From the NCBI RefSeq assembly GCF_013307435.2, contig NZ_CP102845.1, positions 1,674,001 through 1,738,000 of the forward strand: a stretch of 64,000 bases of DNA, written 5' to 3'. This document shows positions 3,353 to 49,456 of this stretch, piece after piece. The stretch's first letter is position 1. The number at the start of each line of letters is the position of its first letter. The DNA comes from Microvirga terrae (GTDB taxonomy: Bacteria; Pseudomonadota; Alphaproteobacteria; Rhizobiales; Beijerinckiaceae). The notes under the pieces are model-generated. The model did not search any database. It was not told the origin of the DNA and saw nothing but the letters and a program-made list of their open reading frames with translations. The translations under genes were made by a program, and so were the position numbers.

Positions 3353-4522
3353 TCAATCAAGAGGAGCGAAAACCTGCTGCGGGCGGTCGACGCCCCGCAG
3401 GCGGTGGCGGCCGAGATCGACGAGCGGCTGACCGAGCTCCCGGGCGAAGACCCGCGACATGAGCACTTGTCGATCGAGCTGCTTGGCCAGATCCAGGAGC
3501 CTGCTGGCGCGGTTCACGGCCGGGCCGATGACCGTGAAATCGAGCCGGTGAGACGCGCCCACATTGCCGTAGGCGACCTCGCCGAAATGCAGAGCGAGGC
3601 TATGCGTCAGCGGAGCACGGCTCGCAGATCCTCGGACGCCGTTTTCGATTTCCGTTCTCGAGCAGAACTCCTGGGCGGCCGCGAGGGCGCTTCGGCACGC
3701 GGAGGTGCCGTTCTGCTCCGGCGATGTCGGGAAGATCGCCAGGACGGAATCGCCGATGAACTTGAGAACCTCGCCGCCATGCGCTTCGACGACATCGCCG
3801 ATGATTCCGAACCAGAGGTTCAGATCGGCGAGCACGTCGGGGATCGGCGAGTGCTCGGACAAGGAGGTGAAGCCGCGCAGATCCGTGAACCAGATTGCGG
3901 CTTCGATGAATTCCACCGCGCCGCGATCGACCCGGCCCTCGATGATGCGCTGGCCAGTGCGAGGCCCGACATAGGTGTCGAGCAGGTCGATCGCGATCCG
4001 CCGCAGCACATGGCGCTCCAGGTAGGGGCTCAGCACCCTTGCGGCGTATCCCAGCTGGTCGATTTCGGATGGATCGAAGCCCCGGAGATCCCGTGTGGCG
4101 AAGGAGATGGCAGCGGTGCGGGTCTGATCCAAGAACGGCAATGGATACATGACGTAATCTGTCGCGCCCGACGCTCTCAGCTCCTCGAGCAGCGGCATCC
4201 GAGGGGCGGGCGCATCGAGCCTGCGGCGGAAGGGTGCACTCGTCTCATCCACGATGCGGGTCGGACTGTTGAGATAGGACGGCGATGTTGCTGCAGTGGC
4301 CCTGTCGGATTCCCGCACGGACACGCTCTCGTCCATCCACACATGCTGCCAGCCGCTGACCTCCGGATGCAGGACCTCCAGACCGAGGGATGCGCGCCAG
4401 ATCGGCACGCCTGCCCGGACGAGCTCACGGCAGAAGCCGGCGAACAAGTCCCTCACATTCTCGTGCGGCGCCCGCTCGATCAGCCAGCGCGAGATCCCGT
4501 CGATGCGCTCCGAAGCGTCCAT
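3353..4522 (-). CDS. Soluble class III adenylate/guanylate cyclase
   Basis: About 389-aa cytoplasmic cyclase without predicted membrane helices. The N-terminal 200 residues form a sensor-like region of unknown type (IDGISRWLIERAPHENVRDL...). The C-terminal cyclase domain has both metal-binding aspartates (WFTDLRGFTSLSE, FIGDSVLAIFP) and the Asn/Arg pair (FTVIGPAVNRASRLL). The ATG at 4522 is preferred because GAGG lies 5 nt upstream; in-frame ATGs at 4546 and 4591 are alternatives. It is the second class III cyclase within 4.5 kb but is not fused to the CHASE2 sensor, so the two probably answer different cues. It is divergent from the M20 peptidase at 4715. Confidence 0.86.
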   Translation of the reverse strand: MDASERIDGISRWLIERAPHENVRDLFAGFCRELVRAGVPIWRASLGLEVLHPEVSGWQHVWMDESVSVRESDRATAATSPSYLNSPTRIVDETSAPFRRRLDAPAPRMPLLEELRASGATDYVMYPLPFLDQTRTAAISFATRDLRGFDPSEIDQLGYAARVLSPYLERHVLRRIAIDLLDTYVGPRTGQRIIEGRVDRGAVEFIEAAIWFTDLRGFTSLSEHSPIPDVLADLNLWFGIIGDVVEAHGGEVLKFIGDSVLAIFPTSPEQNGTSACRSALAAAQEFCSRTEIENGVRGSASRAPLTHSLALHFGEVAYGNVGASHRLDFTVIGPAVNRASRLLDLAKQLDRQVLMSRVFARELGQPLVDLGRHRLRGVDRPQQVFAPLD

Positions 4523-8953: not shown

Positions 8954-10727
8954 GGGGCGATTCCGGCGCAGTCCGCGTGATCCCGGGCTGGTTCTGCGGC
9001 AGGAAATCCTGATCGGCACCCGGGACGCTGTAATCGTAGGCCCAGCGATACACGACGGGCAGGTCCTTGCCCCAGTTGCCGTGGGGCGGCGGGGTCTCGG
9101 GCGTCTGCCATTCCAGCGTGGTGGCCCGCCAGGGATTGCCGCCGGACGGCCGCCCGTGGCGCAGGCTCCAAAACAGGTTGAACACGAAAACCAGCTGGGT
9201 CGCTCCGACGATCAGGGCCACGATGGTGATGAAGGCATTGAGGGTATGCGCCGATGGCGGGACGAAGGCCATGTCGCCCAACTCGTAGTACCGGCGCGGG
9301 ATGCCCATCAGGCCGAGATAGTGCATGGGAAAGAAGATCGCATAGGCTCCCAGAAACGTGACCCAGAAGTGGATCTTGCCGAGGGTGTCGTTCAGCATGC
9401 GGCCGGTCACCTTGGGGTACCAGTGGTAGATCGCCCCGAAGATCACCAGGATGGGGGCCACGCCCATGACCATGTGGAAATGCGCGACCACGAACATCGT
9501 GTCGGAGAGGGGAACGTCGACCACCACGTTGCCGAGAAACAGGCCCGTGAGCCCTCCGTTCACGAAGGTGACGATGAACGCGAGAGCGAACAGCATCGGG
9601 ACGGTCAGGTGGATATTGCCACGCCAGAGCGTGAGGATCCAGTTGTAGACCTTGATCGCCGTGGGCACGGCGATGATCAGGGTCGTGGTGGCGAAGAAGA
9701 ACCCGAAATAGGGATTCATGCCGCTCACATACATGTGGTGGGCCCAGACCACGAAGCTCAAGGCCCCGATGGCCAGCAGCGCCCAGACCATCATGCGGTA
9801 GCCGAAGATGTTGCGCCGCGCATGGGTGCTGATCAGGTCCGACACGATGCCGAAGGCCGGTAGGGCGACGATGTAGACCTCGGGATGTCCGAAGAACCAG
9901 AACAGGTGCTGGAAGAGCAGGGGGGAGCCACCGTTGCGTTCCAGAGGCTGCCCCATCTCGACGATGGCCGGCATGAAGAAGCTGGTCCCGAAGATCCTGT
10001 CGAAGAGCATCATCACGGCGCCGACGAACAGGGCCGGGAAGGCGAGCAGCGCCATGAAGCTCGCGGTGAAGATCCCCCAGACCGTGAGGGGCATGCGCAT
10101 CAGGGTCATGCCACGTGCGCGCGCCTGAAGAACCGTCACCACGTAATTCAACCCGCCCATGGTGAATCCGATGATGAAGATCATCAGGGAGGCGAGCATC
10201 ATGATGATGCCCCATTCCTGCCCGCCGGGGGTGCCGGAGAGGATGGCCTGCGGGGGATAGAGCGTCCATCCGGCCCCGGTCGGGCCGCCGGGCGCGAAAA
10301 AGCTCGCGACGAGAACCAGAACGGCGAGCAGATAGATCCAGAAGCTCAGCATGTTGACATAGGGAAAGACCATATCGCGCGCGCCGACCATCAGGGGGAT
10401 GAGGTAGTTGCCGAAGCCGCCCAGGAACAAGGCCGTGAGCACATAGACCACCATCATCATGCCGTGCATGGTGATGAACTGGTAATAGGCGTTGGCATCG
10501 ATGAAGGTGAAGACGCCGGGAAATCCGAGCTGCAACCGCATCAGCCACGACAGCACGAGTGCGATCAGCCCGACAGAGAGTGCGACGAACGAATACTGAA
10601 TGGCGATGACCTTCGCATCCTGACTGAAGACGTACTTCGTCACCCAGGTATGGGGATGATAGAGTTCGACATCTTCGACATCTGCCGGGGCGACGACTCC
10701 GGCAGGACCAAGTGGCACGTCGACCAT
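8946..10727 (-). CDS. ctaD: Cytochrome c oxidase subunit I (aa3-type)
   Basis: 593-aa catalytic subunit. Metal ligands are all present: low-spin heme His88 and His418, CuB ligands His281, His330 and His331, high-spin heme His416, and Tyr285 positioned for the His-Tyr crosslink. Glu283 in HPEVYI and Asp118 in GARDMVFP indicate a D channel, and Lys359 in TAIKVYNW a K channel, so it is an A1-type proton pump rather than a quinol or cbb3 oxidase. It lies 60 nt after subunit II and overlaps the next gene. No assembly gene (ctaB, ctaG) is in the window. It reduces O2 at the inner membrane using cytochrome c. Confidence 0.95.
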   Translation of the reverse strand: MVDVPLGPAGVVAPADVEDVELYHPHTWVTKYVFSQDAKVIAIQYSFVALSVGLIALVLSWLMRLQLGFPGVFTFIDANAYYQFITMHGMMMVVYVLTALFLGGFGNYLIPLMVGARDMVFPYVNMLSFWIYLLAVLVLVASFFAPGGPTGAGWTLYPPQAILSGTPGGQEWGIIMMLASLMIFIIGFTMGGLNYVVTVLQARARGMTLMRMPLTVWGIFTASFMALLAFPALFVGAVMMLFDRIFGTSFFMPAIVEMGQPLERNGGSPLLFQHLFWFFGHPEVYIVALPAFGIVSDLISTHARRNIFGYRMMVWALLAIGALSFVVWAHHMYVSGMNPYFGFFFATTTLIIAVPTAIKVYNWILTLWRGNIHLTVPMLFALAFIVTFVNGGLTGLFLGNVVVDVPLSDTMFVVAHFHMVMGVAPILVIFGAIYHWYPKVTGRMLNDTLGKIHFWVTFLGAYAIFFPMHYLGLMGIPRRYYELGDMAFVPPSAHTLNAFITIVALIVGATQLVFVFNLFWSLRHGRPSGGNPWRATTLEWQTPETPPPHGNWGKDLPVVYRWAYDYSVPGADQDFLPQNQPGITRTAPESPHG

Positions 10728-10787: not shown

Positions 10788-11594
10788 TCAGTTGGACGCA
10801 GGAGCAAGGCGCGCGAAACTGCGCGATGCCTGATCCTGCAACCATGCCTGATAGTCGCTTGCTTCCTGAACGATCACCTTCCCGCGCATCTGCGGGTGTC
10901 CGACACCGCAGAGTTCCGCACAAAGGATTTCGTATTCCCCGGTTCGCGTTGGCGTGAACCAGATGTAGGAGATCTGACCGGGCACCAGATCCATCTTCGC
11001 GCGAAACTCCGGCACATAGAAGTTATGGAGAACATCGGCGGAGCGAAGAAGCGCCTTGACCGGCTTGCCCACCGGCAGATGCAACTCGCCGCCTTCGATG
11101 ACGACGTCGTCATGCGATTTGGGGTCTTCCTTGTTCAGCCCCAGCGGATTGTCCGGGCTGATAAGGCGCGTGTCCGAGGTGGCAAGGCGGCCATCCGCAC
11201 CTGGCAGACGGAAGCTCCATTGCCATTGCTGTCCGAAGACCTCGATGTCGGTTGCGTCATCCGGAACGGTGATGAACTGCCTCCAGACGAACAGGCCCGG
11301 CGCCAGCATGGCGGCCACGCCAAGTCCGGTCACAACGGTCAGCCACCATTCGAGGCGCTTGTTCTCGGGCTCATAATGCGCCTGCCGGCCGCTCTGGTGG
11401 CGAAACCGATAGATGCAATAGGCCATGAACAGGACAACGGCGACGAAGACCGCTCCGGTGATCCAGAAGGTGATGATGATCGTGTTGTCGATATAGCGCC
11501 AGTTCGAAGCGATCGGGGTCCACCACCAGGGGCTGACGAGGTGGAATACAACCGAACCGATGGCCACCAGAACCAATATGAGCGCTACAGCCAT
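10788..11594 (-). CDS. ctaC: Cytochrome c oxidase subunit II (CuA subunit)
   Basis: 268-aa membrane-anchored subunit II. An N-terminal hydrophobic segment and two helices (NTIIITFWITGAVFVAVVLF; LEWWLTVVTGLGVAAMLAPG) are followed by the periplasmic cupredoxin domain. CuA ligands are visible: His190 (HNFYVPEF), Cys225 and Cys229 (CAELCGVGH), His233 and Met236. GQQWQWSFRLPG is the aromatic electron-entry region. No C-terminal cytochrome c domain is fused. It is first in the operon, so the promoter lies in the long gap upstream. Confidence 0.94.
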   Translation of the reverse strand: MAVALILVLVAIGSVVFHLVSPWWWTPIASNWRYIDNTIIITFWITGAVFVAVVLFMAYCIYRFRHQSGRQAHYEPENKRLEWWLTVVTGLGVAAMLAPGLFVWRQFITVPDDATDIEVFGQQWQWSFRLPGADGRLATSDTRLISPDNPLGLNKEDPKSHDDVVIEGGELHLPVGKPVKALLRSADVLHNFYVPEFRAKMDLVPGQISYIWFTPTRTGEYEILCAELCGVGHPQMRGKVIVQEASDYQAWLQDQASRSFARLAPASN

Positions 11595-12200: not shown

Positions 12201-14195
12201 TTGGCCAGGGAGATCGTGCCTCAATTGCGGTGGCTGAGTAACAAGCGACGGATCGTGGTCCCTGTTCTCGTAGGCGTTCTGTTCAGTAGCCTGCCGATCG
12301 CGCCTGCCTTCGCTCTTGATCTCTTCGGGTGGCTTCGCGGGACGAGCGATGCGCCGCCCCCGCCGAGCCAGCAGGCTCTGCCTTACTCACTCGATATCGT
12401 CGTCGGCGGCGACAATAGCGACCTGAAGCAGACTCTGAAGGACGCCTCGACCCTCCAAAGCCTGCAATCGGATCCCCCGCCCGACGCCGCCGCGCTGGTT
12501 AGCCGTGCCGAGGCCGATCTGCCCCGTCTCATCGATGCGCTCTGGGGGGCGGGCTACTACAATGCCCGCGTCACCATCAACGTGGCCGGGGTACCGCTGA
12601 TGCTGCAGGCCTCCCGGTCGGATGCCGCGACCCGGGCGGCCTCGGGCTACCTCGCGCGCGCGCTCGTGCCCATTCACATCATCGCGGATCCGGGGCCGCA
12701 ATTTGCCCTGAGGGATTTCGCCATCGTGGATGCACGGACGGGGCGTCCCTTCCCACCCGGCGAGCTTCCGCCCAGGATCGTTCAACTCAAGCCGGGCGAT
12801 CCGGCGCGTTCCGCCGACATCGTCGCGGCAGAAGCGCGGATCGTTGACCATTTCCGGGCCCAGTCGCGTCCCTTCGCCAAGATCCAGCGGCAGGATCCCG
12901 TCGTGATCCATCCGGCCGCGGCCATGGATGTGACCCTCGCGGTCGAGCCCGGCCCCCGCGCCGGGATCGGGGAGATTTCGATCAGCGGAGCGGAGAACGT
13001 CGATCCGGCGGTGGTGCGCTCCTTCATCTACACGGAGCCGGGCGATCCGTATTCGCCCGCAGAACTCACGTCCATGCGCAAATCGATCTCCCAGATCGAA
13101 GCCCTGTCGTCCGTGCGGATCCGCGAGGGCACGGCCCTCGACGCCTATGGCAACCTGCCTCTCTTCGTGGAGCTGACCGAACGCCCGTTGCGGGTCATCG
13201 GCGCATCGGTTCAGTATTCGACGACGGACGGACCGGCGGTCCGAGCCTACTGGGCACATCGCAACCTGTTCGGCGGCGCCGAGCGGCTGCGGCTCGAGGG
13301 CAGCATCTTCTATCTCACCGAGGATGGGGGCGATCCCAACCGGAACCAGGATTTCACCTGGGACAACCTCGGAGGACGGTTCCGCGCGAGCTTCCTCAAG
13401 CCCGCCCTCTGGGGAACCCGCAACGACTGGCTGGTGGACGGCCTTGTCGAAAGGGACAGGACGGAGGGCTATACGAGCCGCCTCGCGAATGCGAGCACCG
13501 GCATCCGCCACCGCTTCAGCGACACCTTCTCGATCCAGGGCGGCATTGAGTACGAGAAGGGGCAGGCGACCGACATCCTCGGTCAGATCGACTACACCCT
13601 GGTCGGCCTTCCATTGTCTCTCAGCTACGACTCGACCGACAACCTCCTCAATCCCACCAAGGGCGTGCGGGTGCTCGCCTCGGTCGCCCCTTACCCGGAA
13701 TTCCTGGGCTCCACGGTCCCAATCACGATCGCGCGAGGATCGGCCTCGGCTTACTTCTCCCTTGATGAGGAAGCTCGTTACATCCTCGCCGGCCGGATCG
13801 GTCTGGGCTCGATCGTCGGCGCGGATCTCGACGAGATCCCGGCCAATCGGCGCTTCTATGCCGGCGGCGGCGGTTCGGTGCGTGGCTACCGTTACCGGAC
13901 GCTCGGCCCGACCTACCTCGGAGAGCCGATCGGTGGCCGGAGCCTGCTCGAAGCCTCGCTGGAAGCCCGCATCAAGATCACCAACACCATCGGCATCGTT
14001 CCCTTCGTGGACGCCGGCACCGCCTTCGAGTCGAGCTTCCCGGATTTCGACGAGACCATCCGTGTCGGGGCAGGCCTGGGCCTGCGCTATTATACGGCCA
14101 TCGGCCCCATCCGCCTGGATGTCGCAATCCCGGTCAATCCGGGACCCGGCGATCCGTCCTACGCCATTTATGTCGGAATCGGACAGGCCTTCTGA
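12201..14195 (+). CDS. tamA: TamA, Omp85-family outer-membrane assembly protein
   Basis: 664-aa outer-membrane protein. A signal peptide (VVPVLVGVLFSSLPIAPAFA) is followed by POTRA-like repeats (about residues 60-330) and a 16-strand barrel region (about 330-664). The conserved loop-6 motif of Omp85 proteins is present (GGSVRGYRYRTLGP), as is a terminal barrel signature ending in aromatic Phe (YAIYVGIGQAF). The downstream tamB gene overlaps by one base, so they form a TAM complex that inserts autotransporter-type and other proteins in the outer membrane. The TTG at 12201 gives the longest frame; a GTG at 12216 is an equally plausible start. Confidence 0.9.
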   Translation: MAREIVPQLRWLSNKRRIVVPVLVGVLFSSLPIAPAFALDLFGWLRGTSDAPPPPSQQALPYSLDIVVGGDNSDLKQTLKDASTLQSLQSDPPPDAAALVSRAEADLPRLIDALWGAGYYNARVTINVAGVPLMLQASRSDAATRAASGYLARALVPIHIIADPGPQFALRDFAIVDARTGRPFPPGELPPRIVQLKPGDPARSADIVAAEARIVDHFRAQSRPFAKIQRQDPVVIHPAAAMDVTLAVEPGPRAGIGEISISGAENVDPAVVRSFIYTEPGDPYSPAELTSMRKSISQIEALSSVRIREGTALDAYGNLPLFVELTERPLRVIGASVQYSTTDGPAVRAYWAHRNLFGGAERLRLEGSIFYLTEDGGDPNRNQDFTWDNLGGRFRASFLKPALWGTRNDWLVDGLVERDRTEGYTSRLANASTGIRHRFSDTFSIQGGIEYEKGQATDILGQIDYTLVGLPLSLSYDSTDNLLNPTKGVRVLASVAPYPEFLGSTVPITIARGSASAYFSLDEEARYILAGRIGLGSIVGADLDEIPANRRFYAGGGGSVRGYRYRTLGPTYLGEPIGGRSLLEASLEARIKITNTIGIVPFVDAGTAFESSFPDFDETIRVGAGLGLRYYTAIGPIRLDVAIPVNPGPGDPSYAIYVGIGQAF

Positions 14196-37480: not shown

Positions 37481-38815
37481 TTGCAAAATGATTCATTGCT
37501 CGCTGAGCGGCTCGCGTTCATTGGAATCGATGGAAGGGTGTGCCACGATCTTCCCGTCATCTGGAAGGACATCTCGTCCGAACTGCCCCGGATCCTTGAG
37601 CTGTTCTATGCCCATATGCATCGGCAGCCGCACCTGTCGAAGATGATCGGAACCCAGCAATCCAGGCTCGTGTCCGCCCAGATGCAGCATTGGGGCCGGC
37701 TGTTCAGCGGCAGGTTCGATGCGGCCTATGTGGAGGGGATCCAGCGCATCGGGCTCATTCACAACAAGATCGGCCTGGAGCCCCGGTGGTACATCGGAGG
37801 CTATGCTTTCATCATGAACGAGCTGGTGAAGGCGCTGTCGAAAAAGCACCGCTTCAACGGAGCAGCGCTCGCGCGCAAGCTGGCGGTGGTGAACCAGGCG
37901 GTCATGCTCGACATGGATTTCGCGATTTCCGTGTATCAGGATGCTTTCGTCCAGGACCGCCAGAAGAAGGGCGAGGTTCTGTCGCAGGCCGTCGCCGACT
38001 TTTCGGACGCCGTGCAGGAGAGTCTCGATATCTCAGGCCAGGCAAGTGGTGCCTTGTCGGAGAGTGCGATGGTTTTGGACGAAGCAACCGGGAGCGCCAG
38101 CAGCCTAGCCGTTCAGGTTACGACAGCGGCCGAGCAGACGGCGTCGAACATGCAGTCGGGAGCCGCCGCAACGGAGCAGCTTGCGTCGTCCGTGCGTGAG
38201 ATCGGGCAGCAGGCGAGCCGCTCGGCCGACGTCGCGCGACATGCCCTGCAAAGCTCCCAACGTACGAAGGAATCCGTCAACGGATTGGCCGAGCAGGCAA
38301 GACAGATCGGAGATGTGGTCGACCTGATCGAGCGCATTGCGGCTCAGACCAATCTGCTCGCCCTGAACGCCACGATCGAGGCGGCCCGTGCGGGAGAGAT
38401 GGGCAAAGGCTTTGCGGTCGTCGCGCAGGAAGTCAAGACCCTTGCGAACCAAACCGCCAAAGCCACGACGGAGATCGGCTCCCGCATCGGCGCGATCCAG
38501 GAGGCGACGCAACGCAGCGTGGCCGATATCGATGACATCGGCCGCATCATGGAGGAACTGAGCGGTATCGCCACGGCCATCGCCGCCGCGGTCGAGGAAC
38601 AGGCCGCGGTAACCTCGGATATCGCGGTGAACGTCAGCCAGACCACCGATCATACGCATGCGGTCGTTCGCAGCATCGAGGCACTGACCGGATCGACGGC
38701 ATCTGCGGCAGCAGCGGCGCAGCACGTCTCAAGCGCGAAGCAGACTCTGGATCAGCAGCTTGGTCGCCTGAGGCAGGACATCGGTCGGTTCCTGGCGACG
38801 GCGAGGGCTGCCTGA
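37481..38815 (+). CDS. Globin-coupled methyl-accepting chemotaxis sensor
   Basis: 444-aa soluble chemoreceptor. Residues 1-165 form a protoglobin-type heme domain, with the probable proximal His94 in the signature [17 protein letters not shown]. It is followed by a helical signalling domain with the highly conserved hairpin tip ([40 protein letters not shown]). There is no transmembrane helix, as in HemAT aerotaxis sensors. Known homologues bind O2 and signal via CheA/CheW; neither is in the window. The start is TTG at 37481, supported by GAGGAAG 7 nt upstream. Confidence 0.92.
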
Positions 38816-41433: not shown

Positions 41434-42267
41434 ATGACCTTTACCCGAGCCGATGCACTCGACGTCGCGCATATCCTCAGGACGACGGCTCAGGCCGAGA
41501 TTCTGCCGCGGTTCCGCAACCTGTCTGCTGACGCCATCCGGACCAAGTCTTCGCAGCTCGACCTCGTGACGGATGCCGACGAGGCCGCCGAGCGCGTCAT
41601 CGAAGCCGAGCTCCTGCGCCGGTTCCCGGGAGCTCTGGTCATCGGCGAGGAGGGCGTGAGTCGCAACGCGAGCCTGCTCGACGGGCTCGGTGACGCTGAC
41701 CTCGCGTTCATTCTCGATCCCGTCGACGGCACGCTGAATTTCGCCTCCGGGCTGCCGCTCTTCGGTGTGATGGCCGCTGCGGTGATGAAGGGCGAGATCG
41801 TCGGCGGCGTGATCCTCGATCCGATCTCTGACGATTGGGCCATGGCGGTCCGCGGCGAAGGGGCGTGGATCCAGCGCCCGGACGGCAGCAGCAGCCCGCT
41901 TCAGGTTGCCGCACCGACGCCCCTGTCACAGATGGCGGGTAATGTCTCATGGCGTTATCTGCCCGAAGACCTCCGCCCTGTAGTGACGAGGAATCTGCCG
42001 AAGGTCGCGATGGCGGCCGATCTCCGCTGTGCGGCCCACACCTACCGCCAGACCGCGGCCGGCTACCTTCACTTCTCGTTCTCATCGAGCGTGATGCCGT
42101 GGGATCATGCAGCTGGATGGCTGATTCATCAGGAGGCTGGCGGCTACACGGCGCATTTCGACGGTTCGCCTTACCGTCCCGTGAATCGCAGCGGCGGTCT
42201 CATCAGCGCGCCGGACAGGGAAAGCTGGCAGGCCATTCGCGACGCGCTCCTGCCGCCTCAGGCCTGA
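41434..42267 (+). CDS. Inositol monophosphatase-family phosphatase
   Basis: 277-aa Mg-dependent phosphatase. Metal-binding motifs are in place: LDLVTDADEAAE, VIGEEGV, ILDPVDGTLNFASGLP and the C-terminal MPWDHAAGWLIHQEAGG. Members act on inositol phosphate, histidinol phosphate or PAP; the sequence does not decide. It ends convergently, overlapping the stop of the DauR-type regulator by 10 bp. Confidence 0.9.
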   Translation: MTFTRADALDVAHILRTTAQAEILPRFRNLSADAIRTKSSQLDLVTDADEAAERVIEAELLRRFPGALVIGEEGVSRNASLLDGLGDADLAFILDPVDGTLNFASGLPLFGVMAAAVMKGEIVGGVILDPISDDWAMAVRGEGAWIQRPDGSSSPLQVAAPTPLSQMAGNVSWRYLPEDLRPVVTRNLPKVAMAADLRCAAHTYRQTAAGYLHFSFSSSVMPWDHAAGWLIHQEAGGYTAHFDGSPYRPVNRSGGLISAPDRESWQAIRDALLPPQA

Positions 42268-42899
42268 TCCTTCTTGAGGTAGTTGTAGACCGTGGCACGG
42301 CCGAGACCGAGCACGCGGGAGATATAGGCCGCCGCGTTGCGCCCGCCGAACGCTCCGTCACCGGCCAGATCCGCGACGAGCTGCTGCTTCTGTGCGCGGC
42401 TCATCTCGGTGATGGTGAGACCGCGCGCGCGAGTCCAGGACTGGATGTACTCGTTGATCCGTTCATGCCAGTCCTCCTTGAATAGCGAGGCTGGCTTCTC
42501 GGGTGATTGCGGCACGGCGACGAGCGCATTCAGCGTCTGCATGACGGCATGGAAGTGCGAGACGTCCACATTGATGCACAGGATACCGATGGACTTCCCG
42601 TTCGTGCGCAGGACGGCGCTGACAGATTTGATGCGCCGGCCGTCCCAGTTCACTTTCTCATAGGGCCCAATGATGATGTCGGACGGTTTGAAGTCGATCT
42701 CGTGGAGAAGGGACGGCTCGCCGAGTTCCCGCTTGGAGAACGGGTTGGAGAGATGCACCACGGTCTCGGTCGCGAGATCGTGGAGCACGACTTCCGCGTA
42801 GGGCTGGAAGAGAAGGGCGATGGCGTCGCAGACCGGCGCATAGCTCGCCAGCTCAGGTGTGAGCGCCACTGCGTCGCTCGCCTTGCTCGCGCGGCTCAT
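42258..42899 (-). CDS. YheO/DauR-type transcriptional regulator (PAS + HTH)
   Basis: 213-aa regulator. The N-terminal PAS-like YheO domain (about 20-135: PVCDAIALLFQPYAEVVLHD, SVSAVLRTNGKSIGILCINV) is followed by a C-terminal helix-turn-helix of the DauR group (about 165-210: AAAYISRVLGLGRATVYNYL). DauR itself represses D-arginine catabolism in Pseudomonas; the ligand here is unknown. Its start overlaps the aminotransferase stop by 4 nt, and the pair faces a second aminotransferase operon across a palindrome, so it is the probable regulator of this cluster. Confidence 0.9.
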   Translation of the reverse strand: MSRASKASDAVALTPELASYAPVCDAIALLFQPYAEVVLHDLATETVVHLSNPFSKRELGEPSLLHEIDFKPSDIIIGPYEKVNWDGRRIKSVSAVLRTNGKSIGILCINVDVSHFHAVMQTLNALVAVPQSPEKPASLFKEDWHERINEYIQSWTRARGLTITEMSRAQKQQLVADLAGDGAFGGRNAAAYISRVLGLGRATVYNYLKKDQA

Positions 42900-44011
42900 C
42901 TGTTCTGTGCGCGCACGAAAGCCGCGAGCCTTTCCAAGCCGGCTTCCAGATGATGGGCGGGAGCTCCGATGCCGACCCGGATGTAGTGATCCATGCCATA
43001 GACGTCACCCGGCAGGAGCATGATGCCGCGCTCTTCGCGCAGGCGGTGCACCAACTCGGTCGAATTCATCGGCATGGCATAGCGGACGAAGGCCATTCCG
43101 CCGGCCTTGGGTGACACGAAGGAGAACAGGTCGTTGTTGTGATCGACCCAGCGCTGCAGCAGCGCGAGGTTCTCGCGCAGGATGCGCTTGCTGCGGGCGA
43201 GGATCTCCTGGCGCTTGGCGGGCTGCACGGCGATCTCCGCCACGAACTCGCTCACGGCGCCTGTCGTGATTGACGTGTAGTCTTTGCGCTGCCAGGACGC
43301 GTAGATCTCCTGAGCTGGTCCGACCAGCCAGCCGATGCGCAGGCCCGGAAGCGCCATGGCCTTCGACAATCCACTCGTGATAATCGCTTTCTCGTAGAGA
43401 TCCGCGAAGCTCGGAGGCTCGTCCTGGTCTAGCTCCGCGCCCTTGTAGACCTCGTCAGCGTGGAGGTAAATGCCGTGTTGGCGCGCGATCGCCACGAGGC
43501 CATCCATCGTCTCGCGGGACAGGACGGCCCCGGTCGGGTTGTTGGGATTGCAGATGGTCATCATCTTCGTGTGGCTGGAAATCGCCTTGCGGACGTCGTC
43601 GAGGTCCGGGGTCCAGCCGAGCTCCTCGCGAAGCAGGACCTCCTTGACGGTGACGCCGATGGCGCGGGCCCAACCCCAGATCTGCAGATAGTTCGGGACG
43701 AAGACCACGAGTTCGTCGCCGGGCTCCAGCACGGACATCACGAGGAGAAAATTCGCCTCTGCCGAGCCATTGGTGACGATCACGTGGTCCGGGTTGCGGT
43801 TTGGATGGAGATTGGCGATCGCCCGCCGCAGCTCCACGCGGCCGTTCGTCCAGCCATAGCCCAGTTCCACGTCGAGCACCTGGGCCTGCTGCTCCGGGGT
43901 CAAAAGTTCGCGCAGCGAATAAGGAAGTACGCCGCTGTCGGACAGGTTGTACTCAACCGTGTTCTCATAGAGCGACTGGATGCGCTCGAGCGTGAACTCT
44001 TCGATCTTCAT
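42896..44011 (-). CDS. Class I/II PLP-dependent aminotransferase (copy 1)
   Basis: About 371-aa fold-type I aminotransferase. PLP-lysine segment TSGLSKAMALPGLRIGW, cofactor Asn in CNPNNPTGAVLS, Asp-Tyr in HADEVYKGAEL, and substrate-carboxylate Arg near YIRVGIGAP. GYGWTNGRVELRRAIA is the start of the large domain. The ATG at 44011 has GGGGA upstream; ATG 44017 is an alternative. It is a paralogue of the gene at 44188 (shared LYENxVExNL opening) but divergently transcribed. The amino donor is unknown. Confidence 0.9.
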   Translation of the reverse strand: MKIEEFTLERIQSLYENTVEYNLSDSGVLPYSLRELLTPEQQAQVLDVELGYGWTNGRVELRRAIANLHPNRNPDHVIVTNGSAEANFLLVMSVLEPGDELVVFVPNYLQIWGWARAIGVTVKEVLLREELGWTPDLDDVRKAISSHTKMMTICNPNNPTGAVLSRETMDGLVAIARQHGIYLHADEVYKGAELDQDEPPSFADLYEKAIITSGLSKAMALPGLRIGWLVGPAQEIYASWQRKDYTSITTGAVSEFVAEIAVQPAKRQEILARSKRILRENLALLQRWVDHNNDLFSFVSPKAGGMAFVRYAMPMNSTELVHRLREERGIMLLPGDVYGMDHYIRVGIGAPAHHLEAGLERLAAFVRAQNR

Positions 44012-44059
44012 GGCCATCCCCGCACTGCAAAGCAACGTACCGGGTCTGTAGCATCAGGC

Positions 44060-44081
44060 TTTTGGACTTCATAGTCCAAAA
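44060..44081. promoter_or_regulatory. Perfect palindrome between divergent aminotransferase operons
   Basis: TTTTGGAC (44060-44067) and its exact complement GTCCAAAA (44074-44081) flank a 6-nt spacer. A further TGGACTT half-site follows directly at 44082-44088. It lies in the 176-nt divergent gap and is the natural operator candidate for the DauR-type regulator. Confidence 0.65.
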
Positions 44082-44187
44082 TGGACTTGACTGTTTAATT
44101 GCTTGGCTGCCATGGTCCGGTCTCCCGAATGCGCGCCTGAGATCCGCTGCATCCGGAGTTTCTTCCTCATCCCGAATGGAGCCTTGA

Positions 44188-45300
44188 GTGCAGTTCGATA
44201 CCTTCCTGATGGAGCGGAACCAGACGCTGTACGAGAACGGTGTCGAGATCAATCTGACGGAAAGCGGGGTCCATCCCTGCACCATCGAGGAGATCTTGCC
44301 GGCCGATCACGCGCAGGCGCTGCTGCGCCAGCCGCTCGGCTACGGCTGGACGGACGGGAGGCCGGATCTCAGGGCCGCCATCGCCAACTGGTATCCGGGC
44401 GCCTCGGCGTCCAACGTTCTGGTGACCAACGGATCGTCGGAGGCGACGATGATCGCCCTGATGGCGCTGGTCGATCCAGGCGACAAGGTGCTCTTCGCGG
44501 TTCCCAACTTCATGCAGGTGGATGGACTCGGGCGGGCCCTGGGCATGTCCATCGAGCGCCTTCCCCTTCTCGCCGATCACGGCTGGCAGATCGATCCGGA
44601 AGGTCTGGGTGCCGCCATGGACGGCGTGAAGCTGATCTGCGTCACCAATCCCGGCAACCCGACCGGTGTGGTCCTGTCGTCCCGGAGCCGCGATGCGCTG
44701 CTGGCGGCCGCGCAGAAGGCGGGCGCGTGGCTGATGGTCGACGAGATCTATCGGGGCGGCGAGATCGACGGGGCGGAGACGGAGACATTCTACGGGGGCT
44801 ATTCCCGCGTCATCGTCACCAGCAGCCTGTCCAAGTCTTTCGCCTGTCCGGGCCTGCGTCTCGGCTGGATCGTCGGGCCGGAGGGCGTCGTCGAAGAGGC
44901 GGCCAAGCGGCAGGACTACACGACGATCGGCAGCGGGATCCTGAGCCAGATCCTGGGGGCGGCCGTTATGGAGCCAGGGAATCGCGAGCGCATCCTGGCG
45001 CGAGGGCGGACCCTCCTGCGCGCGAACGCCGACATCGTAGAGGGCTGGGTCGAGAAGCGGAACCGCTGGTCCTGGCAGCGTCCTGCGGCGGGCGGCATGG
45101 CGTTCCTGCACTACGATTTCGACATGCCGTCCGAAGAGTTGTCGAACAGGCTGCGGGAAGAGGAAAGCGTCTTCGTGGTGGCCGGGGCCTGGTTCGGAAT
45201 CGAGCGCCACATCCGTCTCAGCATCGGCGTAAAGACCGAGGATCTGGTCGAGGGGCTGGCTCGCCTCGACGCGTTTCTCGTCCGCCACGGTCTAGGGTAG
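44188..45300 (+). CDS. Class I/II PLP-dependent aminotransferase (copy 2)
   Basis: 370-aa fold-type I aminotransferase, paralogue of the divergent copy. PLP-lysine segment TSSLSKSFACPGLRLGW, TNPGNPTGVVLS, VDEIYRGGEI and HIRLSIGV. GTG start with GGAG 6 nt upstream; the coordinate is set by reading frame from the stop at 45300. It heads a four-gene operon (aminotransferase, M20 hydrolase, dehydratase, cyclodeaminase-fold enzyme), which suggests transamination is one step of a dedicated amino-acid pathway. Confidence 0.9.
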   Translation: MQFDTFLMERNQTLYENGVEINLTESGVHPCTIEEILPADHAQALLRQPLGYGWTDGRPDLRAAIANWYPGASASNVLVTNGSSEATMIALMALVDPGDKVLFAVPNFMQVDGLGRALGMSIERLPLLADHGWQIDPEGLGAAMDGVKLICVTNPGNPTGVVLSSRSRDALLAAAQKAGAWLMVDEIYRGGEIDGAETETFYGGYSRVIVTSSLSKSFACPGLRLGWIVGPEGVVEEAAKRQDYTTIGSGILSQILGAAVMEPGNRERILARGRTLLRANADIVEGWVEKRNRWSWQRPAAGGMAFLHYDFDMPSEELSNRLREEESVFVVAGAWFGIERHIRLSIGVKTEDLVEGLARLDAFLVRHGLG

Positions 45301-45312
45301 GGCCTACACGCG

Positions 45313-46710
45313 ATGCGGCGGAACGACCACTTGCTGCGAGCCGCGACGGATCTCCGCCGCCTCGTCGCTATTCCATCGGTGAGCGCGCGGGCTCAGAATC
45401 TGCCCGAATGCGCCGAGGCCGTGCGCGATCTCCTCGACGGCGCCGGCTTTCAGACCGAGATCCATCCCGGCGGGATCGGCCCCTTCGTAGTCGGCGAGAT
45501 CGGCGAGGGGCCTTTGTCCGTAATGGTTTACAACCACTACGACGTGCAGCCGGAGGATCCGCTGCCCTTGTGGGACAGCCCTCCGTTCGAGCTGAGCGAA
45601 CGCGGCGGGCGCTGGTACGGACGGGGTGTCGCCGACGACAAGGGCGAGTTCGTCAGCCGCCTCGAGGGCTGGCGCCTGTTCCGGGAACGGTATCCCGAGC
45701 CTTTGCCCTTCAAGCTCATCTGGCTGGTCGACGGCGAGGAGGAGATCGGCAGCCCGTCGCTCGAAGCATTCCTGAAGGCTCGCTTCCAGGACGAGAAGGT
45801 CGATGTCTGCTGGTGGGAATACGGCGAGATCGACTCGAGCGGCCGGCCCATCATCCTGTGCGGCTTCAAGGGCGTGATGGCCGTCGAGCTGCGCTGCCGG
45901 ACCGCGACGGCCGACCTGCATTCGAGCTTGGGCGTGATCTTCGACAACCCCCTTTGGCGGCTTGCCGCCGCGACCGCTTCCCTGCGCGACAATGCGGGCC
46001 GCGTTCTGATCGACGGGTTCTATGATGCGATCCGGCACCCCGCACAGGAGGAGCGGAGGCTCGCCGGCACGCCGCCGTTCTCGTTTCGCAGCCTCGTTCA
46101 GGCGACCGGCGGGCAGCGGGTTCTCCAGGGCATCGACGAGGAGAATTTCTACACGGCTTTGAATTTCTCCCCATGCATGAACGTCAATGGCTTTTCCGGC
46201 GGCTATACGGGCGAGGGAGCCAAGACGGTCGTGCCGGCGCAAGGCTTGGTCAAAGTCGACTTCCGCCTCGTTCCCGACCAGGATCCGCAGCAGATCGTGG
46301 GTCTTCTGCGCGCGCATCTCGACCGGCATGGCTTCGACGACGTCGAGCTCATCGTTCACGATGCCAACGTGAAGCCTATTCGATCGTCGACCAATCACTG
46401 GTTCATCCAAGACGCGAAGACAATCCTGGAGGAACACTTCGGGCAACCTGTCATCGTGCAGCCGAGTTCGCCGGCCTCCGGCACGGCTCATCCTTTTGTC
46501 GAGCAGCTCGGCGCGAGTATCGTCGGCATCGGCATCACCCATCATGGGGCGATGCTCCACTCGCCGAACGAGAACATCATCATCAGCCAGTTCGAAGCCA
46601 TGATCGAATGCTCTGCCGCGCTCTTCCAAACGATCGCCGAGCGAGCGGCGGGACAGAGGCCGATCCCTGCGGCGAGTTCCGTCGAGTCGTCGAATGAGGT
46701 GACGCCATGA
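45313..46710 (+). CDS. M20-family metallohydrolase
   Basis: 465-aa M20 hydrolase. Ligand segments: His in VYNHYDVQP, Asp in GVADDKGEFV, Glu pair in VDGEEEIGSPSL, and the late His in AMLHSPNENIII. The fourth ligand region reads WWEYGEIDSSG, where the 4715-6103 paralogue has CDTD, so substrate or metal use may differ. It starts 12 nt after aminotransferase 2 and overlaps the dehydratase gene by 4 nt. In this context it may release an amino acid from an N-acyl or dipeptide precursor. Confidence 0.9.
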   Translation: MRRNDHLLRAATDLRRLVAIPSVSARAQNLPECAEAVRDLLDGAGFQTEIHPGGIGPFVVGEIGEGPLSVMVYNHYDVQPEDPLPLWDSPPFELSERGGRWYGRGVADDKGEFVSRLEGWRLFRERYPEPLPFKLIWLVDGEEEIGSPSLEAFLKARFQDEKVDVCWWEYGEIDSSGRPIILCGFKGVMAVELRCRTATADLHSSLGVIFDNPLWRLAAATASLRDNAGRVLIDGFYDAIRHPAQEERRLAGTPPFSFRSLVQATGGQRVLQGIDEENFYTALNFSPCMNVNGFSGGYTGEGAKTVVPAQGLVKVDFRLVPDQDPQQIVGLLRAHLDRHGFDDVELIVHDANVKPIRSSTNHWFIQDAKTILEEHFGQPVIVQPSSPASGTAHPFVEQLGASIVGIGITHHGAMLHSPNENIIISQFEAMIECSAALFQTIAERAAGQRPIPAASSVESSNEVTP

Positions 46711-47669
46711 ACAGCATCGTTCTCGAAACCGCCGCGCGGTCGGTCCAGGCGCGCCGGCGCATCCGACCGCACATCTTCGAAACGCCTCTGCTGCCGTCCC
46801 GTCAGATCGGCCGCGAGACCGGATCCTCCGTGTACTTCAAGGCCGAGAACTTTCAGCTCACCGGATCCTTCAAGATTCGGGGTGCCGCGAGCAAGATGAC
46901 ATCGCTCGGACTCGACCGTGGCGTCATCACAGCCTCGTCCGGCAATCACGGCATCGCAACGGCGCAGGCGGCGAGTTCCATCGGGCAGGTCTTGACTGTC
47001 GTCCTGCCTGAGACGGTTTCGCAAGCGAAGCTCGAGCGGATCCGCTCCTTCAACGTCAATGTTATCCTGCATGGTGCCGAGAGCGGGCTGGCAGAACTGC
47101 ACGCCCAGCAGGAGGCAGCCTCCCACGGCCTGGTCTATGTCTCTCCCTATAACGATCCCGAGGTCGTGGCCGGGCAGGGCTCTATCGGACTGGAGCTCCT
47201 CGAGCAGGCTGACAGCATCGACAACGTCTTTGTCTCTATGGGAGGCGGAGGCCTGATCGGCGGCATCGGATCCGTGCTCAAGAGTTTCAGCCTGCGCACG
47301 CGGATCTTCGGCGTAGCGGCTCAGAACTCGGCGGCTCTCGCTGCGGCCATCGAGGCGGGACGTGTCGTCGAAACGGAGCATCTGGATACGCTTGCCGACG
47401 GCGTGGCCGGCGGTATGGACGAGGACAGCATCACGCTGCCGCTTGCGCTCTCCGTGATCGACGGAGTCGTGGCATGCACGGAAGCCGAGATCGCCGGAGC
47501 TCTTCGGGATCTGGCCTTCAAGGAGAACCAGATCGTCGAAGGCGCCGCGGCCCTTGCTCTTGCCGGGTTTCTCAAGGTTGCGGAGCGCTGCAGGGGGCAG
47601 ACCAACATCGTGGTTCTCTGCGGGGCCAATTTCGACCGCGAGAAGATCTTCTCCATTCTGAACGATTAG
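46707..47669 (+). CDS. PLP-dependent threonine/serine dehydratase-fold enzyme (EutB/BhcB-like)
   Basis: 320-aa fold-type II PLP enzyme. Schiff-base Lys56 in LTGSFKIRGA, substrate loop SSGNHGIA, and the glycine phosphate loop MGGGGLIGGI are intact. No C-terminal ACT domain, so it is catabolic rather than biosynthetic. The pairing with an ornithine-cyclodeaminase-fold gene is seen in hydroxyectoine utilisation (EutB/EutC) and in the beta-hydroxyaspartate cycle (BhcB dehydratase/BhcD iminosuccinate reductase). By analogy it probably dehydrates a beta-hydroxy amino acid to an imine; the substrate is not determined. Confidence 0.88.
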   Translation: MNSIVLETAARSVQARRRIRPHIFETPLLPSRQIGRETGSSVYFKAENFQLTGSFKIRGAASKMTSLGLDRGVITASSGNHGIATAQAASSIGQVLTVVLPETVSQAKLERIRSFNVNVILHGAESGLAELHAQQEAASHGLVYVSPYNDPEVVAGQGSIGLELLEQADSIDNVFVSMGGGGLIGGIGSVLKSFSLRTRIFGVAAQNSAALAAAIEAGRVVETEHLDTLADGVAGGMDEDSITLPLALSVIDGVVACTEAEIAGALRDLAFKENQIVEGAAALALAGFLKVAERCRGQTNIVVLCGANFDREKIFSILND

Positions 47670-47682
47670 AACTGGAAGCGCC

Positions 47683-48639
47683 ATGGCGCCTGCATCCCGC
47701 ATCACCTTTCTCGAGCTTCCGCAGATCGAAGAGCGCCTCAAGGGGCTCGATCTGGTTGCCCTGATGGAAGAAGCTTTCGCGGCCTTCTCGCGAGGCGAGG
47801 CGGTGGTGCCAGCGCCCGGTGAACTGCTTCTCGACGATCCGCCGGGCGAGGTGCACATCAAGTATGGGTATCTGACGTCAGGCGGCACTTACGTGATCAA
47901 GGTGGCCTCCGGGTTCTGGAACAATCCGGCGAAAGGCCTCAACAGCAGCGATGGTCTTCTCCTCATCTTCAGGAAAGAGACGGGAGAGCTCGCCGCGGTG
48001 CTCAACGATCGGGGACGTTTAACGGACCTGCGCACCGCCGCCGCCGGAGCGGTCGCGGCCAAACACCTGGCGCCCGCGAGAGTGGATGCCATCGGTGTAC
48101 TCGGTTGCGGCATTCAGGCCGAGCTGCAGGTGCAGGTGCTGCAAGCCGTTCGGCCCTGCCGCAACATTGTGATTTGGGGGCGAAACCCCAAGCATGCACT
48201 CGCTTATGCAGAGCGCATGCGGAGCAGGGATTTCTCTGTCGAGATTGCTCCATCTCCGTCAGAGGTAGCGTCCTGCTGCCGGCTGATCGTCACCGCAACC
48301 GCCAGTCCGTCACCGCTCCTGCGGTGGAGCGATTTGTATCCTGGGACCCACATCACGGCCATCGGCGCCGACAGCGCCGAAAAGCAGGAATTGGACGAAG
48401 CGATCATCCACAATGCCGACATCGTTGTAACGGACAGCAGGCGCCAGGCCGGGTCGCGGGGCGAGCTGGGACGGGCCTATGGCCCAGACGCGACTATGAG
48501 CAGAGTGCTGGAGATCGGCGAGATCATCATGGGCACGGCGCGGGGACGCGCGACGCCAGATCAGATTTCGGTTTCGACCTTCTCCGGATTGGCCGTTCAG
48601 GACATCGTGATGGCGTCGGCGGTTCTGCAGCAGCCCTAG
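47683..48639 (+). CDS. Ornithine cyclodeaminase/mu-crystallin-family enzyme (EutC/BhcD-like)
   Basis: 318-aa NAD(P)-dependent enzyme. N-terminal substrate region with VHIKYGYLTSGGTYVIKVAS, RLTDLRTAAAGAVAAKHLA, Rossmann motif IGVLGCGIQAELQVQVL, and ITAIGADSAEKQELDEAI. Family members act as cyclodeaminases, imine reductases or amino-acid dehydrogenases. Its position 13 nt after the dehydratase suggests it reduces the imine made there (inference, as for BhcD). It is the last gene of the operon; no terminator hairpin stands out. Confidence 0.88.
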   Translation: MAPASRITFLELPQIEERLKGLDLVALMEEAFAAFSRGEAVVPAPGELLLDDPPGEVHIKYGYLTSGGTYVIKVASGFWNNPAKGLNSSDGLLLIFRKETGELAAVLNDRGRLTDLRTAAAGAVAAKHLAPARVDAIGVLGCGIQAELQVQVLQAVRPCRNIVIWGRNPKHALAYAERMRSRDFSVEIAPSPSEVASCCRLIVTATASPSPLLRWSDLYPGTHITAIGADSAEKQELDEAIIHNADIVVTDSRRQAGSRGELGRAYGPDATMSRVLEIGEIIMGTARGRATPDQISVSTFSGLAVQDIVMASAVLQQP

Positions 48640-48655
48640 AGGCTGCGCGGACCGA

Positions 48656-49261
48656 TCAGCCGGTCAGTTCGATGCGGCCGATCAGGGCATCGATCTCGAT
48701 GATCTTCTTGAGCCGGCGCTTGCATTGCCTGTCGAGATACCAGGCTCTTCCGATGCTCAATCCTAGAAACGGCAGGGCCCAGACAATGCTGACCGCCTTC
48801 AGGAGAACCAAAGCAAGGAACGCAACAGAGAGGATCCAGGCCTCGATCCGCCCGAAGCCTTCCGTGAGTTCGTTCTTCACGAGCAGGTGCTGCCGCTCGA
48901 TCAGAAGCTGACCTCGCGCTCGGTCGAGCCTGTCCCGTTGCGCCATGGACGGGAGGGCGCTGCGTAGGGTTTCGAGAGAGCCCTTGATCTGCGTCAGGTG
49001 CGGTGCTCGTTCCGCCGTTTCGTGCTCGCGTGCAACTGGCACGAAGGCTGCGGTGATGCGGCGATAGAAGGCCACGAGCGCGGGCGGGTGATTGTCCTGC
49101 TCGGTCTGGACCCCGTCGGGAGGGAATCGGGCCGTGATGCGATTGCGGACGAAGGAGGTGAGCGAGGCGGCCTTTTCGTTCCGGGCCGTGCGTCCGAAGG
49201 AGTTCGCAACGTGTTCGGCGATAGCGGGTTCTACCGCAGCCCCGACTCTGTCCGTCGACAT
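48656..49261 (-). CDS. Hypothetical protein with C-terminal membrane hairpin
   Basis: About 201-aa protein: a soluble N-terminal region (about 1-130), then two adjacent hydrophobic segments (IEAWILSVAFLALVLLKAVS; IVWALPFLGLSIGRAWYL) and a basic helical tail (QCKRRLKKIIEIDALIGRIE). The ATG at 49261 has AAGGA at good spacing. No known domain recognised. Convergent with the amino-acid operon. Confidence 0.68.
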   Translation of the reverse strand: MSTDRVGAAVEPAIAEHVANSFGRTARNEKAASLTSFVRNRITARFPPDGVQTEQDNHPPALVAFYRRITAAFVPVAREHETAERAPHLTQIKGSLETLRSALPSMAQRDRLDRARGQLLIERQHLLVKNELTEGFGRIEAWILSVAFLALVLLKAVSIVWALPFLGLSIGRAWYLDRQCKRRLKKIIEIDALIGRIELTG

Positions 49262-49456
49262 CAACAGCTTCCTTCACGTCTGCGCCTGGGACAAGGATGC
49301 GCCGTGTCGTTGAGCCGATGGCTCAGGCCACTACACGTTCCCATTCCACTGCGGCTTTCCTCACCGTGAAGGAGTATGGTTAATGAACGGTTAAGCATGG
49401 CCCCGGTAACCGTGCGCCGGGGAGAGCCTGCGCCTCGCAGGGAGTTGCAGCCTGTA

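Follow-up and report, generated by a model that had tools for sequence, protein, structure and literature searches.

Two described systems pair a pyridoxal phosphate (PLP) dehydratase with a reductase of the ornithine cyclodeaminase (OCD)/mu-crystallin fold: EutB/EutC, from hydroxyectoine utilisation, and BhcB/BhcD, from the beta-hydroxyaspartate cycle. We analysed a 64,000-nucleotide stretch of the genome of the soil bacterium Microvirga terrae (the window; coordinates count from its first nucleotide), where enzymes of these two folds are encoded in a divergent six-gene operon at 42258-48639. This locus proves genuine and recurrent: a variant of the EutB/EutC-type route that nevertheless fails membership of EutB/EutC. 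The original prediction, made from the sequence alone, had suggested an uncharacterised route, and this stands: the nearest protein models of both enzymes carry no function, and the operon is apparently undescribed, as a literature search found no published description of it, judging by titles and abstract openings.

The open reading frame (ORF) list and Pfam confirmed all six ORFs of the families claimed for this region. A regulator with a YheO-like PAS domain and an HTH_22 domain (42258-42899; PF08348, PAS_6, 81.6 bits; PF13309, 60.9 bits) and AT1, a fold-type I PLP enzyme of the PRK07324/GntC/VioD group (42896-44011; Aminotran_1_2, 159.3 bits), occupy the reverse strand. They diverge from four forward genes, encoding the AT1 paralogue AT2 (44188-45300; Aminotran_1_2, 165.5 bits), an M20-family metallohydrolase of the PRK06446 group that we propose as the deacylase (45313-46710; Peptidase_M20, PF01546, 74.7 bits; M20_dimer, PF07687, 39.5 bits), a fold-type II PLP dehydratase of the PRK06815 group (46707-47669; Pfam PALP, 238.6 bits; hereafter PALP) and an OCD/mu-crystallin-fold reductase of the PRK06823 group (47683-48639; OCD_Mu_crystall, 187.5 bits; hereafter OCD). 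Alignment of the intergenic regions places the start of AT1 at a conserved ATG at 44011, rather than at the TTG at 44035 that would give an ORF of 42896-44035; AT2 starts with the GTG at 44188.

None of the curated NCBIfam cut-offs for EutB/EutC and BhcB/BhcD was reached by the window proteins. PALP scored best with PRK06815 (NF005292; 344.9 bits, cut-off 371), against 248.7 and 214.7 bits with the EutB models (cut-offs 413 and 413.35) and 204.9 with BhcB (550), and OCD with PRK06823 (NF005296; 316.1 bits, cut-off 438), against 223.1 with EutC (471.65) and 136 with BhcD (500). Even for these best models PALP falls just under the cut-off and OCD well under; both models come without function or pathway, and our literature search returned no paper on either. 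A related operon from Caballeronia (L150; locus numbers are our own), containing an AT gene, an AstE gene, a substrate-binding protein (SBP) gene, the regulator, PALP and OCD, does exceed both cut-offs (PRK06815, 501.9 versus 371 bits; PRK06823, 471.6 versus 438 bits), which ties the window to the uncharacterised PRK06815/PRK06823 pair.

Maximum-likelihood trees of 37 PALP and 34 OCD rows gave a consistent placement. Ectoine references were the annotated locus L065, whose PALP was too short and was left out, and L151 and L152, named by likeness to it; as Bhc references we used L157-L159, whose BhcD is above cut-off and whose PALP was assumed to be BhcB by neighbourhood alone. The window OCD falls within a clade of 24 rows (support 98/92) that is sister to EutC, with BhcD distant, and the window PALP belongs to a clade of 20 rows (94/71; 95/97 for an inner clade of 18) apart from the Bhc-locus PALPs and from EutB, which groups with the PALP of locus L118 (100/98); both trees contain several long branches, and their deep joins are unsure. 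By sequence comparison, then, neither window enzyme belongs to the EutB/EutC or the BhcB/BhcD groups, which supports the original prediction. The opposite outcome, with both enzymes in characterised clades and the missing partners elsewhere in the genome, was not obtained: EutD gave a best match of 27.2 bits in the source genome (cut-off 613), EutE a single distant AstE/AspA-domain match of 50.7 bits, which was not scored against EutE itself, and no other place, and BhcD nothing at E<=1e-100. Pfam found no aldolase among the operon ORFs (BhcA and BhcC were not searched genome-wide), and the other three OCD genes of the genome have P2C-reductase as their best model.

As to active-site motifs, all 20 PALP rows of the window clade show SFK(I/L/F)RGA, with SFKIRGA in the window protein, and SSGNHG, and outside it we found STGNHG in L116 and L156 and AFKLRGA in L118. 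The OCD rows of the module clade have their Lys, Arg and GAD/GSD positions in common with EutC; read by eye, 21 of the 24 rows have WGR at the turn, with an arginine taken as NADP-type, while L032 and L048 have WAR, as in EutC, and L150 has WGP. The window OCD itself shows WGR and GAD.

The operon recurs within the genus. Searching with the OCD protein found 13 loci, 12 from Microvirga with 73-83% identity and one from a Lachnospiraceae with 30%, and PALP is present in 23 of 48 Microvirga genomes, source genome counted, at 24 loci (one genome carries two). The complete set, regulator-AT1 divergent from AT2-M20-PALP-OCD, occurs at 19 of these 24 loci, including L114, whose PALP is interrupted by a TAG stop; its retention across the genus indicates that the grouping of these genes is not due to chance. 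At L108, L109 and L111 the six genes are joined by an AstE/DoeB-like one, located between PALP and OCD, and L112 and L113 consist of a regulator divergent from SBP-PALP-AstE-OCD, with no window-type AT1/AT2, so that the smallest unit seen comprises a regulator, a binding protein, a deacylase, PALP and OCD. The three AstE proteins that were scored, out of these five, matched EutE/DoeB best, with 272-277 bits (cut-off 402.7). The predicted lack of EutD holds for the whole genome, but that of EutE is specific to the lineage, because an EutE/DoeB-like deacylase occupies 5 of the 24 Microvirga loci.

Both types of module coexist in genome G718, which has the chromosomal six-gene copy L114, with the stop inside PALP, and the AstE-bearing copy L113, which is open. 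Two catabolic modules also adjoin in Microvirga sesbaniae (L013:473-10939), near a plasmid RepC gene (12369-13577): the first is a set of HTH regulator, OCD and AT genes like one from an A. tumefaciens plasmid, plus a window-type M20, and the second has the arrangement regulator/SBP-PALP-AstE-OCD.

Loci outside Microvirga were found by similarity to PALP, OCD or AT, only part of the matches listed being examined. A single reference set served to screen 20 of these loci, each carrying a module-like PALP or OCD. Twelve contain OCD and a PALP-fold gene (L032, L049, L051, L057, L060, L061, L066, L116, L118, L126, L128 and L150; L126 and L128 are from one genus, and the PALP-fold gene of L118 is EutB-like). 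Eleven of the twelve also carry a regulator homologue, nine an ABC importer for polar amino acids and five a GntC-like AT, and the core of regulator, PALP and OCD is found again in rhizobia, Sulfitobacter and Caballeronia. The other eight have PALP without OCD (L127, L129, L130 with an M20D gene, L131 and L156 with AstE) or AT and OCD without PALP (L031, L046 and L048). Observed outside the screen were L050, L052, L055 (OCD of another type with AT), L053, L054, L056 and L058, and L034, initially a control, turned out to contain PALP, OCD, regulator, AT and importer genes. In E. coli genomes, nothing matched the PALP-OCD pair of Caballeronia at the DNA level.

A related operon with a 47% identical OCD, a regulator, an ABC importer and tandem operator-like sites is found on plasmid p_1 of Sinorhizobium meliloti RCAM1750 (L049), and the OCD gene is also on pSymA of strain 1021 (L059). 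In this strain, the amino-acid SBP gene SMa0495, which PMC8844928 reports as a target of the AbcR1/2 small RNAs, may be the SBP gene of the related operon. Rhizobial plasmids also carry a second recurrent cluster (L050, L052), with an HTH regulator, a divergent type of OCD, a GntC-like AT, M20, SBP and an ABC importer, and no PALP; the OCD of L050 has neither the WGR nor the GAD motif.

The main ground for proposing a substrate class comes from the deacylase slot. The window M20 has the metallo-carboxypeptidase Sso-CP2 as its best PDB match, and all seven aligned rows (window and six relatives) contain the M20 metal-ligand motifs and the Glu of WWE(Y/F)GE; at this metal-ligand switch position CN2 dipeptidase has Asp in the printed alignment, and a Glu instead of Asp is taken to mark deacylases and carboxypeptidases as opposed to aminopeptidases. 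Of the 12 loci outside Microvirga that have OCD and a PALP-fold gene, 8 carry a recognised deacylase. The slot is filled by AstE/DoeB-like proteins in L118 (283.9 bits), L150 and also L055, by an M20D protein in L060 (323.6 bits with a general amidohydrolase model, above its cut-off of 153.75) and by ArgE in Sulfitobacter L057 (379 bits, above the cut-off of 297.7); the window-type M20 reappears in plasmid locus L050 (PRK06446, 292.8 bits), beside an OCD of another type. This repeated recruitment of N-acyl-amino-acid hydrolases, several of them named for N-acetyl-diamino acids, suggests an N-acyl, probably basic, substrate. Of the N-blocked or dipeptide-bound hydroxy amino acid first envisaged, the recurrent slot agrees with the N-blocked form, and DoeB-, DoeB2- and ArgE-like enzymes and a Glu-type M20 favour an N-acyl compound over a dipeptide. 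We also considered a guanidino substrate, from the agmatinase-family ureohydrolases in L118 (181.6 bits) and beside L061 (201.2 bits; cut-off 174.3), and dropped it, since two loci are too few to claim; the source genome has two arginase-family genes, away from the operon.

AT1 and AT2 are paralogues with 41% identity that score below the cut-offs of their nearest models: AT1 gave 326.4 bits with PRK07324 (cut-off 476), 255.9 with GntC (415) and 230.5 with VioD (390.9), and AT2 235.8 and 203.7 with the last two. We compared the GntC active-site set E9, S25, N52, T84, K219, H250 and R346, reading the printed alignments by hand. Both proteins retain the PLP Lys, the carboxylate Arg, the N-terminal Glu and the first Ser (S25) common to arginine cyclases, but Asn52, Thr84 and His250, listed among the GntC active-site residues in PMC10367076, are replaced by Tyr, Ala/Ser and Ile. 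Because of these replacements, AT1 and AT2 are not predicted to be GntC-type cyclases, and transamination would be our default guess for their chemistry. The two transaminases of the original prediction are therefore two fold-type I PLP enzymes, as expected, but their membership of the PRK07324/GntC/VioD group leaves transamination unproven. Used as a search anchor, AT homologues appeared in 17 of 398 genomes, in 18 regions (L146 and L149 being repeats) that are mostly loci without PALP and OCD, and their patchiness among relatives indicates that AT is not an obligatory step. Apparent SBP matches within AT1 were discarded as an antisense artefact of the over-long L014 ORF. A GntC-like AT and an OCD also lie on a plasmid of Streptomyces sp. 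NBC_01216 (L056), beside a 2OG-Fe dioxygenase, a DapF-like epimerase and a molybdopterin oxidoreductase, in what looks like a biosynthetic relative.

Both domains of the window regulator are above their Pfam cut-offs. DauR has this architecture too. The DauR-type label given to the regulator before is upheld in that respect, but no NCBIfam model matched the protein at E<=0.001 to support the name. Between AT1 and AT2 we found two operator-like repeats, a perfect palindrome (site 1, TTGGACT-TCAT-AGTCCAA, 44062-44079), conserved, though not identical, in 16 aligned Microvirga intergenic regions, and 19 bp from it a weaker copy (site 2, 44082-44097) that is the second-best motif match in the window and overlaps a -35-like TTGACT at 44087-44092. 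A search of 43900-49000 gave no sigma-70 promoter. With a motif weight matrix from whose training the tested group was excluded, 13 of the 17 loci with a regulator had their best site within the module control zone (0.32 expected), L032, L051, L118 and L132 being the failures and the in-zone L055 site scoring weakly (5.6); the same held for two of eight loci in which no regulator was seen (0.13 expected), L156 scoring 17.4 and L116 only 5.4. In all 13 in-zone loci scoring at least 11 (12 of the 17, and L156), which represent nine groups and not 13 independent cases, the best neighbour within 45 bp lies 18 or 19 bp away and scores between -1.1 and 15.0. The control zones were set by hand after annotation and the first motif matches, and the seven training sites were chosen from matches located before operons.

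A control on 35 loci showed a mild enrichment of the same offset (23 of 175 neighbours at 18/19 bp versus 10.9 expected); it is impure, as its two top-scoring members, L135 and L034, are regulator-bearing, as is a third, L119, outside the 12 best listed. In L135 the regulator and AT genes flank the site, at 9276, which has a neighbour at a distance of 19 bp. Locus L034 has an operator-like site at 3701-3724, between divergent PALP and OCD, and a further one at 11145-11168, before the ORF that follows the regulator and matches an inverse-autotransporter beta-domain. The consensus TNGACTNNNNAGTCNA, with one mismatch allowed, matched 13 places in 461,451 bases, versus 14 for its reversed control, 2 for a second control and 7 for a third, and a looser core pattern matched two distinct places genome-wide versus three control matches; neither result is significant. 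The case for operators rests thus on position, held-out scoring and spacing, and the window regulator presumably binds both repeats.

We propose, with confidence and doubt about evenly balanced, that these genes form a catabolic module, under the control of the regulator, whose substrate is an amino acid with an N-acyl cap and a beta-hydroxyl group, probably basic or diamino. The M20 enzyme would remove the N-acyl group, PALP would eliminate water across C-alpha/C-beta to give an enamine/imine, and OCD would reduce the imine with NADPH to a saturated L-amino acid or, alternatively, act on a 2-oxo acid plus ammonia; AT1 and/or AT2 would then pass the product on through PLP chemistry, probably transamination, and the PAS regulator would switch both arms from the two palindromes. 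We infer these catalytic steps, their order, the cofactor preference and the substrate class from the folds, motifs and neighbourhoods described above.

Several observations weigh against this proposal. The window has neither a transporter nor an AstE gene; no recognised deacylase is present in four of the twelve loci (L032, L066, L049 and L116, an 8-kb contig), and none was seen in L034 either; the figures of 8 and 9 out of 12 for deacylase and importer are raw counts with no base rate near unrelated genes beside them. In L049 the PALP-fold gene is annotated as threonine synthase and was not matched by the window PALP, and AT accompanies only 5 of the 12 loci, its homologues often occurring without PALP and OCD. 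The serine of SSGNHG, the likeness of the M20 subgroup to dipeptidases and the second-best OCD model also count against it and enter into the alternatives.

An unlikely one of these is the scavenging of D-amino acids or peptides, in which M20 would free an amino acid from a peptide, PALP would be a racemase and OCD would resemble DauB, an anabolic L-arginine dehydrogenase of the OCD family, under a DauR-type regulator. The regulator architecture would suit it, as would the SSGNHG serine, present in serine racemases too, the serine and aspartate racemases among the PDB matches, the likeness of M20 to dipeptidases (PRK08201, 241.4 bits) and the dipeptide-type ABC transporter that adjoins the operon in Microvirga L008. 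However, the Pfam matches of the operon include no D-amino-acid dehydrogenase, relatives have deacylases of DoeB/ArgE types, M20 has Glu and not the aminopeptidase Asp, and the PALP serine is also found in the Bhc-locus and L118 PALPs, with Thr in those of ectoine operons. We consider it distinctly improbable that the locus serves a simple N-acetylornithine- or arginine-type catabolism, with the deacylase releasing a diamino acid, OCD cyclodeaminating it and PALP being an ordinary threonine/serine dehydratase: this would leave the PALP-OCD linkage unexplained, and OCD groups with EutC-type proteins and scores only 97.5 of 350 bits with the ornithine cyclodeaminase model NF005762, even if PRK08291, named cyclodeaminase, is its second-best model (270.1 bits, cut-off 408), ArgE is above cut-off in L057, ureohydrolases accompany L118 and L061, and the AT group is akin to arginine-derived cyclases. 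Hardly probable, too, is a variant of (hydroxy)ectoine use entering at N-acetyl-3-hydroxy-diaminobutyrate through an alternative deacylase. It draws on the DoeB/EutE likeness of the three scored Microvirga AstE proteins, the sister position of the OCD clade to EutC, the L118 and L034 PALPs close to the EutB cut-off (391.2 and 400.6 of 413 bits) and the second-best match of the L060 M20D protein, DoeB2 (306.6 of 550 bits); set against these are the genome without EutD, an operon with no EnuR-type regulator gene, a window PALP outside the EutB clade and ectoine-model scores all below cut-off. Finally, the biosynthesis of a cyclic guanidino amino acid, to which the GntC and VioD scores of AT1/AT2 and the Streptomyces plasmid combining such an AT with OCD, dioxygenase and epimerase might point, is very improbable given the GntC residues lost from both proteins, the catabolic-looking context of importer, regulator and deacylase in relatives and the absence of a peptide synthetase among the 20 window ORFs scanned.

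Extending the N-acyl-hydroxy-amino-acid proposal, it is possible, though we put it forward only tentatively, that the locus exemplifies a widespread, unnamed PAS-regulated module of deacylase, PALP and OCD, with an optional GntC-like PLP enzyme, importer and ureohydrolase, which would de-hydroxylate, at the beta position, basic amino acids in N-acylated form, for instance plant or microbial compounds of the hydroxyarginine or hydroxyornithine type, and which would share a tandem-palindrome operator and freely exchange its first enzyme. If so, the EutB/EutC-type dehydrate-then-reduce pair would be a general tool for amino-acid de-hydroxylation, fitted with different deacylases for differently capped substrates, and families named only threonine/serine dehydratase and ornithine cyclodeaminase would gain a pathway. 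The operator-like repeats offer a handle on regulon and inducer, and the relative on a large S. meliloti plasmid makes legume-derived amino acids plausible substrates.

The window also contains a globin-coupled sensor, a fusion of protoglobin and methyl-accepting chemotaxis signalling domains (37481-38815, forward strand), and a 202-amino-acid ORF without Pfam match (48656-49264, reverse strand) that adjoins the operon in 8 of 12 Microvirga loci with 53-73% identity.

Compared with known systems, the locus resembles Pseudomonas dauBAR in its regulator architecture and its OCD-family enzyme, but dauBAR includes a D-arginine dehydrogenase and lacks PALP, M20 and the AT pair. The arginine-cyclising enzymes GntC, VioD and OrfR, together with PRK07324, are the nearest scored relatives of AT1 and AT2. 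With BhcB/BhcD the window has in common the folds and the logic of dehydration followed by reduction, but both enzymes are distant from them in the trees. EutB/EutC, with EutE/DoeB, likewise place a fold-type II PLP dehydratase beside an OCD-fold protein, and some relatives of the window have an EutE-like deacylase; unlike that system, the window has no EutD, its regulator is of another type, the AT pair and M20 are additional and PALP lies outside the EutB clade. The best models for both window enzymes are those of the PRK06815/PRK06823 pair, whose two members stand together above cut-off in the related operon of Caballeronia.

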